Source of the DNA: Alphaproteobacteria bacterium
Lineage (GTDB): Bacteria > Pseudomonadota > Alphaproteobacteria > JAVJVX01
Reading direction: 5' to 3'
DNA length: 64,000 nucleotides
Assembly: GCA_040220875.1 (NCBI GenBank)
Contig: JAVJVX010000009.1
Coordinates: forward strand, 434,001 to 498,000
Shown here: positions 31,368 through 64,000 of the stretch, one piece after another
How positions within the stretch are numbered: position 1 is the first letter of the stretch
Layout: each line of letters opens with the position of its first letter
Notes under the pieces: model-generated
The model's database searches: none
The model's input: only the letters and a program-made list of their open reading frames with translations
What the model was told of the DNA's origin: nothing
Program-made: the position numbers and the translations under genes

Positions 31368-31382
31368 GCGACAGGACGTTGC
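31368..31382 (+). promoter_or_regulatory. AGGA-loop hairpin over the csrA ribosome-binding site
   Basis: The 15 bases directly before the csrA ATG can fold as GCGAC-AGGAC-GTTGC: five base pairs (one G-U) closing a five-base loop that displays AGGA. The AGGA is also the Shine-Dalgarno, 6 bases before the ATG. A GGA in a hairpin loop is the standard CsrA target, so CsrA probably represses its own translation. This is a structure drawn by eye. Confidence 0.6.
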
Positions 31383-31607
31383 ATGCTCTATCTCACCCGT
31401 AAGGTTGGCGAATCGGTCATTATCGACGACAATATCGAGATTACAGTCGTCGAGGTCCGCGGTAAGACGATCAAGCTCGGATTCGAATTTCCGGCCGATG
31501 TGACCGTCCTGCGCCGCGAGCTTTACGAGAAAATCCAGGCCGAGAACCGCGCCGCCGCCGAGGGCAGCGAAGAATTCGCCAAGACTCTGGCGTCGAAGTC
31601 GAAATAA
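31383..31607 (+). CDS. csrA: Carbon storage / translational regulator CsrA
   Basis: A 74-residue RNA-binding homodimer that blocks or stabilises target mRNAs by binding GGA-loop hairpins. The RNA-contact residues Leu4 (MLYLTRK) and Arg44 (VTVLRRELYEKI) are conserved. The middle strand reads KLGFEFPAD rather than the more usual IGIxAP. A roughly 25-residue polar C-terminal tail extends beyond the core. In bacteria that possess FliW, the CsrA C-terminal region contributes to FliW binding. fliW is encoded about 21 kb downstream and flagellin about 31 kb downstream. The gene is alone between divergent flgB and the flhX-like gene. Confidence 0.96.
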   Translation: MLYLTRKVGESVIIDDNIEITVVEVRGKTIKLGFEFPADVTVLRRELYEKIQAENRAAAEGSEEFAKTLASKSK

Positions 31608-49443: not shown

Positions 49444-49881
49444 ATGGACCCGAACAGCCTCGCCGAAGATCTGATTGCGGTCACGAGCCGGCTCTCGGCC
49501 ATCCTGGAGCAGGAGAACAAGCTGCTCCAGGCGATGAAGCCGGCCCGGATTACCACCCTTCAGGACGACAAGGTGGCGCTGGCAAACGCCTACCAGGCGC
49601 TGATGCGCGAATTGGCCCGCGATCCGGCGCCGATCGCCCAGATGGAGCCCATCCTGCGCCAGACGGTCGAGAAGACACTGAAGCAGTTCAATGAACTCGC
49701 CAACCGCAACATGAACGCGTTGCGCGCGGCCCAGGAGGTGAACCGGCGCGTCATGGTCACAATCGTTGACGCCATAAAAAGCCAGTCGACCGGTCAGCGC
49801 GGCTACGGCAGGACCGGGCGGGCATCCGCTGGCGATGCCGGCGGAAGGCCGATTTCAGTCAGCGTGAACGAGCGTCTGTAA
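49444..49881 (+). CDS. flgN: FlgN-like flagellar export chaperone
   Basis: A 145-residue helical protein (LIAVTSRLSAILEQENKLLQAMKPARI, then LANAYQALMRELA and FNELANRNMNALRAAQEVNRRVMVTIVDAI) with the layout of FlgN, the export chaperone of FlgK and FlgL. The C-terminal ~30 residues are Gly/Arg-rich and likely disordered. It sits immediately before flgK, as in many bacteria. Confidence 0.82.
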   Translation: MDPNSLAEDLIAVTSRLSAILEQENKLLQAMKPARITTLQDDKVALANAYQALMRELARDPAPIAQMEPILRQTVEKTLKQFNELANRNMNALRAAQEVNRRVMVTIVDAIKSQSTGQRGYGRTGRASAGDAGGRPISVSVNERL

Positions 49882-49907
49882 TGGACCTCTAACGGAAAGC
49901 CACGGTC

Positions 49908-51998
49908 ATGAGCCTTACCCTAGCGCTTCAGAACGCGGTCAGCGGGCTGCAATACAGCCAGACAACGCTGAACACGATCTCGAACAACATCGCAAACGCG
50001 AATACCGAAGGCTATACCCGCAAGACGGTCGACGTGGAGGCGCGCACGCTGGCCGGCCAGGGCGCTGGCGTCAATGTCACCGGGCTGAGCCGCTCGGTCA
50101 GCCAGGGGCTCCTCTCGGATTTACGCATTCAGATTTCCGCGGTCGAGAACCTCACCTATCAGAGCGAGATTTTCGGGCGCATGCAGGACATGTTTGGCTC
50201 GTTGGCCAGCGGAAGCGATATCAGCTCGCAAATCAACGACCTCGAACAGGCGCTCGAGGTCCTGGCGACCACGCCGGAATCCGAGGACGCGCGAATTGCG
50301 GTAATCAACGAGGCCCAAAATCTGGTCAACGAACTGAACTCGATGGCGGCCAGCGTGCAGAAACTCCGGCTCGAGGCAGACCAGACTGTCGGCGCTTCCG
50401 TAACGCGCGTTAACGAGCTTCTGGGCCAGATCGACCAGTTGAACAGGCAGATCGCCGACGCCAAGGGTAACAATCGCGTCTCGGTCGAACTCGAGGATCA
50501 ACGCGACCAGGCAATGAGCGATCTGGCCAAGGAAATCGACTACAGTTTCTTCGTTCGCGATACCGGCGAGGCCGTGATTCTGACCAAGACCGGCCGGACC
50601 CTGCTGGACGGGTTCGTGCGCCCGCTATCCCATGCCACGGCCTCACAGATGGATCAGGGGCTGACGCTGGGAAGCGGGATCGACGGCATATTCCTGGGCG
50701 GTGTCGATATTACGGCCGAGATCACGGACGGCCGCATGGCCGGCGCGATCCGGATGCGCGACCAGGTGCTGCCGAATTTCGGCGCCCAGCTCGACAACCT
50801 CACGGTCACCATTCGCGACGAAATCAACGCCGTTCACAATACCGGCGCCGGCCATCCCGCCGCCTCGACCCTGACCGGTACGCGCGTCTTCGGCAACACC
50901 GCCAACGACATTTTTTCAGGTACAGGCACGGTGCGTCTCGCCCTTGTGGACCAGAACGGCAATTACGCGCCCGGCACGCCCCCCACCGATGCGGATTTCT
51001 ACGATCTGGATCTTACGGCCCTCGGCCCGGTCTCGATTGATGCGCTGGCGGCGGATATCAACGCCAATCTTACAAATATCAACGCCACCATCGTGAACGG
51101 ACAGCTTGTCCTCGAGGGCTCCGGCGGCTTCCGGGTCGCGATCGACGACCAGGGCTCCGAGGAAGTCACGACGGGCCGTAGCTTTTCGCATTACTTCGGG
51201 CTGAACGACTTCTTTGTCTCGGGCGAAGTTTATTCGGCCTACGAATCAGCCCGACAGACCGCCGCCACGACCCCCGTCGGCTCCGACGGCCAGCTCACGA
51301 TCAGCTTCGCCGGCATGACCGCTGCCGCCACCGTCAATTACACGTCGGCGACCACCCTCACGACGCTGGCAACAGACATCACGACGCAGATCGCCGCCCA
51401 GGGCGGCAACGCCACCGCCAGTGTCGTCAGTGACGGGGACGGCGTGCGTCTCGTGATTTCGGATCCGGATGGGGATGAACTGCATTTCGCGGAAACCGGC
51501 GGCGGCAGCGCGTACCGGGATCTCGGCCTCGGCACGCGGGACGACGCCATTTCAACCACAATCTCGCTCAGGAGCGATATCGCATCCAACCCGTCCCTGA
51601 TTTCGCGTGGCCGGGTCTCCAGTGCGACCCCTACTGTCGGCGGGTCCGCCATCAGTGCGGGTGACAATCGAACAGCGCTGGCGCTCGCCGCAAAGTTTTC
51701 CGAAGGCATCGTGTTTGGCACCTCGGGCGGGATCGCGACAACGAACACGACCTTCTCCGGCTTCGGTGCGACCATGGTTTCGCTCAATGCCTCGCAGGCG
51801 CAGCTCAACGACAGCACGCTCGATTTCCAGACAATAATGCGTAACGAGCTGTCCGGCAAGGTCTCGGGGCAAAGCGGTGTCAATGTCGACGAGGAGCTGG
51901 CCAATATGACGGTCTTCCAGAACGCTTATGCCGCCAACGCACGGGTCATTTCCGTGACTGCGGAACTCCTTGAAATCCTTGTCAATCTTGGCCGATAG
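49908..51998 (+). CDS. flgK: Flagellar hook-associated protein FlgK (HAP1)
   Basis: A 696-residue hook-filament junction protein. The N-terminus (SLTLALQNAVSGLQYSQTTLNTISNNIANANTEGYTRK, in parts) and the C-terminus (NVDEELANMTVFQNAYAANARVISVTAELLEILVNLGR) are the HAP1 D0/D1 helices. The long central part with Thr/Ser-rich beta segments is the exposed domain. The second gene after it, fliW, and the flagellin gene further on make it part of the late flagellar set. Confidence 0.96.
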   Translation: MSLTLALQNAVSGLQYSQTTLNTISNNIANANTEGYTRKTVDVEARTLAGQGAGVNVTGLSRSVSQGLLSDLRIQISAVENLTYQSEIFGRMQDMFGSLASGSDISSQINDLEQALEVLATTPESEDARIAVINEAQNLVNELNSMAASVQKLRLEADQTVGASVTRVNELLGQIDQLNRQIADAKGNNRVSVELEDQRDQAMSDLAKEIDYSFFVRDTGEAVILTKTGRTLLDGFVRPLSHATASQMDQGLTLGSGIDGIFLGGVDITAEITDGRMAGAIRMRDQVLPNFGAQLDNLTVTIRDEINAVHNTGAGHPAASTLTGTRVFGNTANDIFSGTGTVRLALVDQNGNYAPGTPPTDADFYDLDLTALGPVSIDALAADINANLTNINATIVNGQLVLEGSGGFRVAIDDQGSEEVTTGRSFSHYFGLNDFFVSGEVYSAYESARQTAATTPVGSDGQLTISFAGMTAAATVNYTSATTLTTLATDITTQIAAQGGNATASVVSDGDGVRLVISDPDGDELHFAETGGGSAYRDLGLGTRDDAISTTISLRSDIASNPSLISRGRVSSATPTVGGSAISAGDNRTALALAAKFSEGIVFGTSGGIATTNTTFSGFGATMVSLNASQAQLNDSTLDFQTIMRNELSGKVSGQSGVNVDEELANMTVFQNAYAANARVISVTAELLEILVNLGR

Positions 51999-52010
51999 GA
52001 GGTTCAGGAT

Positions 52011-52928
52011 ATGACCCGTATCACCGACATTGCCGCCCACGCGCAGCTTCTCTCGAACATGGCGGCCGCCCAATCGCGGATCGGCAAGCTCAACGTGCAG
52101 ATCTCCTCCGGCAAGACAGCGCAGCGCTTTCAGGGGCTGGAGTTGCAGGACACGTCGCGGCTGATCGACCTCAAGACGTCCCATCAGCGCACCGCACAGT
52201 TCCTGCGCAACATTCAGGCAGCCGACCAGCGGCTGACCTTTATGGAGAATGCGGCCAGCACGACCTTCGATGTCGCAAAGCAATTCCGCACCCAGCTCAT
52301 CAATGCCCTCAACATGGATAACGCCAGCGACCTCACGCTAGTGAGCGACGCCCGCGCCTTCCTGGAAACAGTGGCGGGGCAGCTCAACAAGACTCACGAG
52401 GGACGCTACCTGTTTTCCGGCACCCGGACGGATACCCGGCCGGTCGATATTGACGATCCCGATTTCTTCTCGGTCTTTCCGGCGATGCCGACTTCGGCAG
52501 ATACGAGTTATTTCCAGGGAGACTCCCAGAAACTCACGGTCCGCGCGGATACCGATATTTCAATCACCTACGGGGTGACGGCGGATCAGGCGGGTTTCGA
52601 GGAAATCATTCGCGCCCTCAAGCTCGTCAGTATTGCCGGGCAGCCGCCCAGCCGCGATGTGCTGGAGGAAGCACTCGGCGTGACGAATCAGGCCATTGAC
52701 GACATTCCGCGGATCGTCAGCTCCATTGGCGCCGTTCGCAAGCAGCTTCAGGACGTGGAGACAATCCATACCGACCTGCAGCTTTATCTCGAACAGGGGA
52801 TTTCAGATATCGAGAACGTCGATGTCAGCAAGGCGCTGACGCAATTGAGTCAGGAGCAGCTCACGATGGAGGCGTCCTTTTCGACGATTTCCGTGATGCG
52901 GGGTCTGACATTGACCAATTTCCTTTAA
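52011..52928 (+). CDS. flgL: Flagellar hook-associated protein FlgL (HAP3)
   Basis: A 305-residue flagellin-like junction protein. The N-terminal D0/D1 region (SNMAAAQSRIGKLNVQISSGKTAQRFQGLE) and the central GRYLFSGTRTDTRPV loop are FlgL signatures, and the C-terminal helix (LTQLSQEQLTMEASFSTISVMRGLTLTNFL) ends as FlgL and flagellin do. An AGGAGG lies 14 bases before the ATG and an AGGAT directly before it. Confidence 0.93.
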   Translation: MTRITDIAAHAQLLSNMAAAQSRIGKLNVQISSGKTAQRFQGLELQDTSRLIDLKTSHQRTAQFLRNIQAADQRLTFMENAASTTFDVAKQFRTQLINALNMDNASDLTLVSDARAFLETVAGQLNKTHEGRYLFSGTRTDTRPVDIDDPDFFSVFPAMPTSADTSYFQGDSQKLTVRADTDISITYGVTADQAGFEEIIRALKLVSIAGQPPSRDVLEEALGVTNQAIDDIPRIVSSIGAVRKQLQDVETIHTDLQLYLEQGISDIENVDVSKALTQLSQEQLTMEASFSTISVMRGLTLTNFL

Positions 52929-52962: not shown

Positions 52963-53448
52963 ATGCACGCAACCAAACTGACCCACACCGAATCGAGCGC
53001 GGCAGAACCGCCGCCCGACGGGGTGCGAATGATCGAGACGCGGTTTGGCGAGATGCCGTTCGACCCGCAAAATTCCCTGACCATGCCTCAGGGGCTGATC
53101 GGCTATTCCGATTTTCGCGAGTTCGGTCTGCTGGCCCTGCCGGATAGTGGTCTGGGTGCGATGATGCTCCTGCAAAGCCTTTCGGAGGCCAGCCTGTCCT
53201 TCATCGTGGCGCCGTACAATGCGGAAAGCGGCATGATCGACGACAAGGACCTGGCCGACGCCGCGCGGGCGCTTGGCATCGGGCGGGACGATCTGGTTGT
53301 GCTGCTGGTGGTGACCGTCCAGCGGGAGGCCGACACCATCAAGATCTACGGCAACCTGAGGGCGCCGGTCATGGTCGACAACGAGCACCACATCGCCCGG
53401 CAATACGTTCTCCCGAACCCGAAATATCCGGTTCGCTACGAGTTCTAG
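52963..53448 (+). CDS. fliW: Flagellar assembly factor FliW (CsrA antagonist)
   Basis: A 161-residue protein with a ~22-residue polar N-terminal extension before the FliW fold. The hallmark segments are FGEMPFDPQNSLTMPQGLIGYSDFREFGLL, MMLLQSLSEASLSFIVAPYNAE, DDLVVLLVVTVQ and NLRAPVMVDNEHHIARQYVLPNPKYPVRYEF (read in parts). FliW binds CsrA and lifts its repression of flagellin translation; flagellin in turn sequesters FliW. Order flgN-flgK-flgL-fliW is the Bacillus order. A GAGAGGA ribosome-binding site precedes the ATG. FliW is not usually emphasised in alphaproteobacteria, where FlbT and FlaF act on flagellin; neither of those is in this window. Confidence 0.9.
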   Translation: MHATKLTHTESSAAEPPPDGVRMIETRFGEMPFDPQNSLTMPQGLIGYSDFREFGLLALPDSGLGAMMLLQSLSEASLSFIVAPYNAESGMIDDKDLADAARALGIGRDDLVVLLVVTVQREADTIKIYGNLRAPVMVDNEHHIARQYVLPNPKYPVRYEF

Positions 53449-62945: not shown

Positions 62946-62962
62946 GGGAACAGGATGTTCCC
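62946..62962 (+). promoter_or_regulatory. CsrA-type hairpin in the flagellin leader
   Basis: GGGAAC-AGGAT-GTTCCC forms a perfect six-pair stem with a five-base loop AGGAT, presenting the GGA core. The stretch ACAGGATGT closely resembles the CsrA high-affinity consensus. It lies 48 bases before the flagellin ATG, while a second GGA is in the ribosome-binding site (62998-63002). Two such sites, one upstream and one over the SD, are the arrangement at Bacillus hag. Confidence 0.68.
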
Positions 62963-62989
62963 GAACGGCAGGTAGCTGTTTATCCCAAA

Positions 62990-63002
62990 CTCCAAGTAGG
63001 AG
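62990..63002 (+). promoter_or_regulatory. Hairpin sequestering the flagellin Shine-Dalgarno
   Basis: CTCC-AAGTA-GGAG is a short four-pair hairpin that includes the GGAG of the flagellin ribosome-binding site (AGGAG, 8 bases before the ATG). It is weak on its own but could cooperate with CsrA binding. Confidence 0.5.
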
Positions 63003-63010
63003 AACACACC

Positions 63011-64000
63011 ATGTCTCTCAACATCATCTCCAACTTCGCGGCCAATGCGGCTCACCGCAACCTGGCCACGACCGAAGCTCAAACCACTGCTTCCTTGACC
63101 AAGCTGTCTTCAGGTAGCCGCGTGGTTTCGGCCAAGGACGACGCCGCGTCGCTCGCGATCGGTTCTCGTCTGAACGCCGAGGTCCAGGCCCTGAAACAGG
63201 CATCCGTGAACGCGGGTCAGGCCGTCTCGATGCTCCAGATCGCTGACGGCGCCATGGCGCGCGTGAACGACATTCTGGTCCGGATGAAAACCCTCTCGGT
63301 GCAGGCTGGTTCCGGCCAGCTTTCCTCGACAGAGCGGAGCATCCTCGACTCGGAGTTCCAGGCACTCACGTCGGAAATCGACCGTATCGCCCAGGACACC
63401 GAGTTCAACGGCCAAACCCTGGTGAACGGCTCCACATCGACCACGACCGTGCTGAACGGCCAGGCGGCCGGCGACCGTATCTTCGAAGCGGCCGACGGTT
63501 TTGCCGGAATCGCGCTCGATTCCGACGTGGGCGATGCAGCCATCAGCGTGTCGTTCAACGCTACCGATAACGTCCTCACCCTCACCAACCTGACGACCGG
63601 TGTGAGCGAAGGCGTGAACATTGGCGGCACGGCCATCGCGCTGAACGAAGAGCAGAGCGTGCGCTTCAATCAGATCGGTGCCACGATTACCCTCAACTCC
63701 GCCTTCGACAAAACCACCGACATTGCGCCGACCGGCGCCGTGACGGAAGCCAACGATGGCGGCACGGGGTCAATCGACACCGCCACGATCACGTTGCTCA
63801 ACGCGGATGTCGCGGATGCGGTGGAAACCCTGTCCTCGCTGTCGGCCTCGATCGACGCCACGACCGCGAACAGTGCCGGCGTTTCGCTCGGTGCGTTCAC
63901 GGCCAACGCTGTGGATTTAAGCACGGTCGGGACGAAGAACCTGACACTCAGCGACGGAACCAGCGATATCGAGATCAGCTTCGTCGTCACCGAAGGGTAC
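63011..64000 (+). CDS. Flagellin, 3'-truncated at window end
   Basis: The filament subunit, exported and polymerised at the tip. 330 codons are present and the frame is open to the window end. The N-terminal D0/D1 is classical (NIISNFAANAAHRNLATTEAQTTASLTKLSSGSRVVSAKDDAASLAIGSRL, in parts, then LVRMKTLSVQAGSGQLSSTERSILDSEFQALTSEIDRIA). It is followed by a Thr/Ala/Gly/Asp-rich variable domain from ~residue 140. The C-terminal D1/D0 helices lie outside. The many Thr/Ser residues in the variable domain are plausible glycosylation sites for the nearby OGT-like enzyme. It has a strong AGGAG ribosome-binding site with CsrA-type leader structures. Confidence 0.95.
   Translation, partial: MSLNIISNFAANAAHRNLATTEAQTTASLTKLSSGSRVVSAKDDAASLAIGSRLNAEVQALKQASVNAGQAVSMLQIADGAMARVNDILVRMKTLSVQAGSGQLSSTERSILDSEFQALTSEIDRIAQDTEFNGQTLVNGSTSTTTVLNGQAAGDRIFEAADGFAGIALDSDVGDAAISVSFNATDNVLTLTNLTTGVSEGVNIGGTAIALNEEQSVRFNQIGATITLNSAFDKTTDIAPTGAVTEANDGGTGSIDTATITLLNADVADAVETLSSLSASIDATTANSAGVSLGAFTANAVDLSTVGTKNLTLSDGTSDIEISFVVTEGY

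Follow-up and report, generated by a model that had tools for sequence, protein, structure and literature searches.

Tandem pentaloop hairpins in an alphaproteobacterial flagellin leader as the probable operator of a diverged CsrA-FliW switch

In Bacillus subtilis, flagellin is controlled by the Hag-FliW-CsrA system at the hag leader, in which CsrA has two or more sites, one of them on the Shine-Dalgarno sequence (PMC7652899). A comparable CsrA-FliW-flaA system is found in the Gram-negative Campylobacter jejuni, where the CsrA sites lie in stem-loops of the flagellin leader and FliW is the antagonist. The CsrA of C. jejuni selects the sequence mAwGGAs, with GGA present in every ligand, and the replacement A36V lowers its binding (PMC6692469). 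Complexes of RsmE and RsmN with RNA show a dimeric reader, with two RNA-binding faces, on small A-initial loops (ANGGA hexa- and pentaloops) closed by a short stem. ANGGA pentaloops are high-affinity ligands of RsmE, the GGA bases have been described as irreplaceable, and the structures have been read as ruling out other bases (PMC4005645). In the Alphaproteobacteria, the FlbT and FlaF proteins of Caulobacter control flagellin expression after transcription, acting at the leader of the mRNA (PMC4894983). A search of open-access literature found no report of FliW-CsrA control in this class, except for a mention of the genes in magnetotactic bacteria.

The window analysed here is a 64,000-nucleotide stretch of the 2.54-Mb, 99% complete genome of an alphaproteobacterium. 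All three gene types of the switch occur in this genome, which carries two flagellins, one FliW and one CsrA. The preliminary description of the window had named a FliW, a CsrA and a flagellin in it, and Pfam matches bore out all three. The predicted CsrA antagonist and flagellin partner, FliW (52963-53448, plus strand), scored 63.2 bits against a Pfam cut-off of 25 and is similar to the solved FliW of PDB entry 5dmb (chain 5dmb_A, phmmer E 7e-7). CsrA (31383-31607, plus strand; Pfam CsrA, 82 bits) is 74 amino acids long, has 5dmb_D as its best PDB match, and ends in a C-terminal extension, IQAENRAAAEGSEEF, that resembles the CsrA solved with FliW. The flagellin gene (63011-64000, plus strand; Pfam Flagellin_N, 123.5 bits) runs off the window, and the second flagellin follows about 5 kb downstream on the same contig (G000:C9:502249).

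The proteins and the target are thus those of B. subtilis, and the CsrA C-terminal extension contacted by FliW is common to both. Directly before fliW lie flgN, flgK and flgL (49444-52928, plus strand), in the order previously proposed, as identified with Pfam and NCBIfam; FlgN, at 24.2 bits, falls under its cut-off. The order flgN-flgK-flgL-fliW is also that of Bacillus. Unlike in B. subtilis, csrA adjoins flgB about 22 kb from fliW, the leader hairpins have ANGWA pentaloops, and CsrA carries F36 and L43. Neither FlbT nor FlaF, which had been noted as absent from the window, matched anywhere in the 2.54-Mb genome, and both profile searches were positive in a Caulobacter control.

The 70-nt flagellin leader, start codon included, had an MFE structure consisting only of three adjacent hairpins (-22 kcal/mol, z -2.2), all on the plus strand. 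The third, upstream element, H1 (62946-62962), can be drawn as GGGAACA-GGA-UGUUCCC or as GGGAAC-AGGAU-GUUCCC with the loop AGGAU; it also formed in the MFE structure of a 121-nt context (z -2.1), so that the GGGAAC/GUUCCC hairpin of the preliminary description is recovered by folding at both lengths. H2 (62963-62981), GAACGGC-AGGUA-GCUGUUU, has the loop AGGUA and is the upstream pentaloop hairpin kept in relatives; it had been overlooked. H3 (62990-63002), CUCC-AAGUA-GGAG, has the loop AAGUA, and the Shine-Dalgarno sequence forms its 3' strand, GGAG. Loop to loop, H2 and H3 are about 24 nt apart. As in B. subtilis, then, at least two sites are predicted in the leader, one of them over the Shine-Dalgarno sequence.

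The preliminary description had read the leader as two GGA sites, the H1 loop and a second GGA in the Shine-Dalgarno sequence. The AGGAU loop of H1 stands, but the second GGA is the 3' stem strand of H3, whose loop is without GGA. Only H1 holds GGA inside its loop, and a leader of GGA-loop sites is not what the fold gives. In place of two GGA sites we find tandem A-N-G-W-A pentaloop hairpins, and the earlier interpretation is on the whole partly supported. No Rfam family matched the window leader up to E 10, nor the related leaders at the gathering threshold. The leader of the second flagellin of the genome (L044 325-391, G000:C9 ~502170-502236) retains CAGGTAG and CAAGTAG as words but folds differently, with stems of only 1-2 bp.

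For comparison we collected 80 flagellin leaders from FliW+ genomes (56 genomes) and 40 from FlbT+ controls. Named relatives were gathered through CsrA, the FliW alignment (A1) being too divergent for a collection scan; the closest named CsrA relatives are Alphaproteobacteria of the genera Thalassospira, Pelagibius, Tistrella, Fodinicurvata and Ferruginivarius. A motif-free scan of 80-nt leaders, with expectations taken from dinucleotide shuffles, found 155 hairpins with 5-nt loops in the FliW+ leaders against 76 expected, and their loops preferred A-N-G-(A/U)-A. At least two ANGWH hairpins were present in 33 of the 80 FliW+ leaders (31/56 genomes), where 0.2 leaders were expected, and in none of the 40 FlbT+ controls. 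The leader pattern is far beyond chance. The usual distance between twin loops is 20 to 25 nt, and the form of H3 in relatives is UCC-ANGUA-GGA, with the stem variants UUC/GAA, CGC/GCG and CAC/GUG. Several relatives, G124, G080 and G194 among them, also have a third upstream ANGWN hairpin like H1. About 40% of the sampled FliW+ leaders, including that of the second flagellin of this genome, are without an ANGWH hairpin.

A second test was anchored on the loop word alone, with no selection for stems, and is the unbiased one. ANGWA was flanked by a stem of at least 3 bp in 74 of 136 occurrences in FliW+ leaders and in 3/24 in FlbT+ leaders. The canonical CsrA word ANGGA lay in a stem in 2 of 39 cases (p 7e-9 against ANGWA), and control loop words did so in 0-8%, except for the reversed word AWGNA, which overlaps the motif.

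These counts bear on a reading in which the switch is canonical. According to it, CsrA reads GGA at H1 (AGGAU) and at the single-stranded Shine-Dalgarno sequence after the weak H3 has melted; loops of the AGGAA type would be A(N)GGAX minus the N, and AAGUA or AUGUA loops would merely tune the masking of the Shine-Dalgarno sequence. GGA does occur in 36 of the 97 motif loops of FliW+ leaders and in H1 of the window, the core contacts L4, R6 and R44 are retained in CsrA, and RsmE takes AGGAX loops lacking the N with low micromolar affinity (PMC4005645). However, the other 61 of the 97 motif loops have no GGA, and words without GG, A[ACU]GWA, were borne on stems as often (45/75) as AGGNA (32/68), unlike ANGGA. 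H2 and H3, moreover, share one loop rule though only H3 meets the Shine-Dalgarno sequence, and the residues of CsrA described below are replaced across the class. We regard GGA reading of this kind as rather unlikely.

Stem covariation supported the hairpins in 24 aligned leaders, which were picked for having both hairpins and include the window leader with its H2: the score was 0.572 against 0.172 for shuffled and at most 0.15 for slid alignments, and 8 of 9 pairs showed two-sided changes. The hairpins might instead be plain structures that attenuate translation or stabilise the mRNA, with no protein reader, and H3 by itself would conceal the Shine-Dalgarno sequence. The loop letters, however, stay constant while the stems vary, the opposite of what pure structure predicts, and the pattern tracks FliW and CsrA and is missing from FlbT+ genomes; this explanation seems to us very improbable.

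In the window's own genome, the best match of a twin-hairpin covariance model (R1) was the window leader (62963-63004, 39.7 bits, E 6.6e-7), itself one of the 24 leaders in the model's training set. The runner-up in that genome (C5:698679) is antisense within a coding gene, and the remaining matches are weak. R1 matched about 40 of 79 FliW+ leader loci and, at E 1, none of 40 FlbT+ leader loci. Class-wide, at E 0.001, it matched 28 genomes, namely 26 FliW+ genomes, G381 and one apparent false positive, a result that is partly circular because the leaders were preselected. G381 is a CsrA+ genome in which the match lies on a flagellin leader outside the training set. Two matches were not counted as flagellar targets: one in G082 that is apparently coding sequence, and one in G064. 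The latter is a twin ANGWN hairpin (L320 ~1480-1547, G064:C118; R1 E 3e-4; no Rfam match) just before an O-acetylhomoserine sulfhydrylase-like gene.

In named relatives R1 also matched upstream of fliE, between flgC and fliE, and in an independent count 14 of 78 fliE leaders had twin ANGWH hairpins, with 0.05 expected. The window's own fliE is without twin hairpins. Those seen, at L213, L222, L253, L262, L277, L281-L284 and L290, belong to Kiloniellaceae, Pelagibius, Denitrobaculum and others. One loop rule ahead of two different flagellar genes argues for a single trans-acting reader.

That reader could be some other RNA-binding protein found alongside FliW and CsrA, with CsrA acting elsewhere. 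Our assignment of the hairpins to CsrA is an inferred one, and CsrA occurs in 18 genomes without a detected FliW, four of which have FlbT. On the other hand, the established partner of FliW is CsrA, the extension of the window CsrA matches that of the FliW-bound CsrA of 5dmb, the spacing of the hairpins and their overlap with the Shine-Dalgarno sequence fit dual-site repression by CsrA, and we know of no alternative protein that reads such hairpins. We therefore consider another reader improbable, and CsrA the likelier one.

The CsrA proteins of the class are themselves unusual. In 60 alphaproteobacterial CsrAs, L2, R6, R44 and E46 were invariant, and the window CsrA keeps L4, R6, R44 and E46. 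Position 36 was F or Y in 54 of the 60, and none of the 60 had H43, the residue there being L, Y, F or M (L or Y in 57). The named alphaproteobacterial CsrA loci had F/Y36 and L/F43 in 80 of 80 cases, as against A36 and H43 in 30 of 30 members of a phylum sample drawn mostly from other classes. The window CsrA, with F36 and L43, thus departs from the usual, not strictly defining, CsrA traits A36 and H43 seen in E. coli and Pseudomonas. The solved CsrAs that were aligned, including the one solved with FliW, also have A36 and H43, so the residue change does not follow from the presence of FliW. Within the class the link between residues and loops is imperfect, since G145 combines A36 with AAGAA loops, and an AGGGA loop accompanies S36 in G242 and G143.

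The solved RsmN complex has Ala54 in contact with the GG dinucleotide (PMC3791407); by its offset from Arg62/R44 this alanine corresponds to A36 of CsrA. Unlike the ligands of RsmE and RsmN, the alphaproteobacterial loops have A or U for the second G of ANGGA. As RsmE binds ANGGA as a pentaloop, ANGWA would be the same pentaloop with its second G changed to A or U. The likeness to C. jejuni is limited in the same respect, its CsrA requiring A36 and GGA, while the window CsrA lacks A36 and GGA is not the rule in the loops. We give an even chance to a combined proposal: that CsrA specificity in Alphaproteobacteria moved from ANGGA to ANGWA in step with the replacement of A36 and H43, and that the class shares one leader plan, in which small hairpins stand in tandem, the last of them covering the Shine-Dalgarno sequence, and their loops are CsrA-type (ANGWA) or FlbT-type (ARAAY) according to the regulator present. 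The GGA requirement of CsrA has been described as set by the protein backbone. If true, a CsrA reading ANGWA would contradict the published GGA-only view (PMC4005645), and a change across the class in both the loop and the residues that flank the GG pocket would amount to a natural specificity switch.

The set of FliW, CsrA and flagellin-leader hairpins is not peculiar to one genome. Across a class sample of 385 alphaproteobacterial genomes, FliW was found in 63, from 43 families, and CsrA and FlbT were over their cut-offs in 75 and 134. CsrA accompanied FliW in 57 of 63 FliW+ genomes and was found in 18 of 322 FliW- genomes (p 6e-45), whereas FliW and FlbT largely excluded each other, FlbT occurring in 1/63 and 133/322 (p 6e-12); both p-values ignore relatedness, and the family counts, in which 2 of the 43 FliW families also hold a genome with FlbT, are the safer measure. 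CsrA was not detected in six FliW+ genomes, five of them less than 90% complete. The class-wide search proposed in the preliminary description thus shows FliW+ genomes with CsrA and conserved, covarying flagellin-leader hairpins of a kind missing from FlbT+ genomes. CsrA together with FlbT was seen in five genomes (G087, G207, G297, G369 and G350), four of them without FliW; because of these five, CsrA is not confined to a role in a flagellin switch.

As in Caulobacter, control in the window would act at the level of the leader, and small hairpins are seen in FlbT+ leaders too, frequently as tandems or covering the Shine-Dalgarno sequence. Unlike Caulobacter, the genome has no FlbT or FlaF match, and the FlbT+ loops are AAAAY or AGAAY as compared with ANGWA. 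In the last 80 nt of FlbT+ leaders, 10 of 40 had GC-AAAAY-GC hairpins, often tandem, and/or UCC-AGAAY-GGA over the Shine-Dalgarno sequence (L116, L118, L121, L125, L127, L136 and L145 among those with AAAAY/AGAAY hairpins). These hairpins may be the target sites of FlbT. The comparison suggests that one leader plan serves either of two alternative systems, FliW-CsrA or FlbT-FlaF, an idea about flagellin control in Alphaproteobacteria that is now accessible to study in genera that can be cultured, such as Thalassospira.

Taken with the steps described for Bacillus (PMC6529632, PMC7652899), the leader is probably a multi-site operator for the organism's own CsrA, in a CsrA-FliW flagellin switch of diverged alphaproteobacterial form and possibly with shifted RNA specificity. 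Its components belong to the protein families of the Bacillus and Campylobacter switches, and it would operate in a similar way. A CsrA dimer would bridge H2 and H3, with H1 as an extra, spare or cooperative site, and the bridged CsrA would block ribosome access to the flagellin mRNA. FliW would strip CsrA off by way of the extended CsrA C terminus, as in Bacillus, and unexported flagellin would occupy FliW, so that flagellin synthesis would track export. In these Alphaproteobacteria, CsrA and FliW would then fill the role held by FlbT and FlaF in others.

A hairpin ahead of csrA was found in 4 of 60 relatives against 1.7 expected and is not general. In the window, such a hairpin, GCGAC-AGGAC-GUUGC (31368-31382), stands just before the csrA start codon, with the Shine-Dalgarno sequence in its loop, which is of the same loop class, and autoregulation of csrA through this AGGAC hairpin on its own Shine-Dalgarno sequence is possible.
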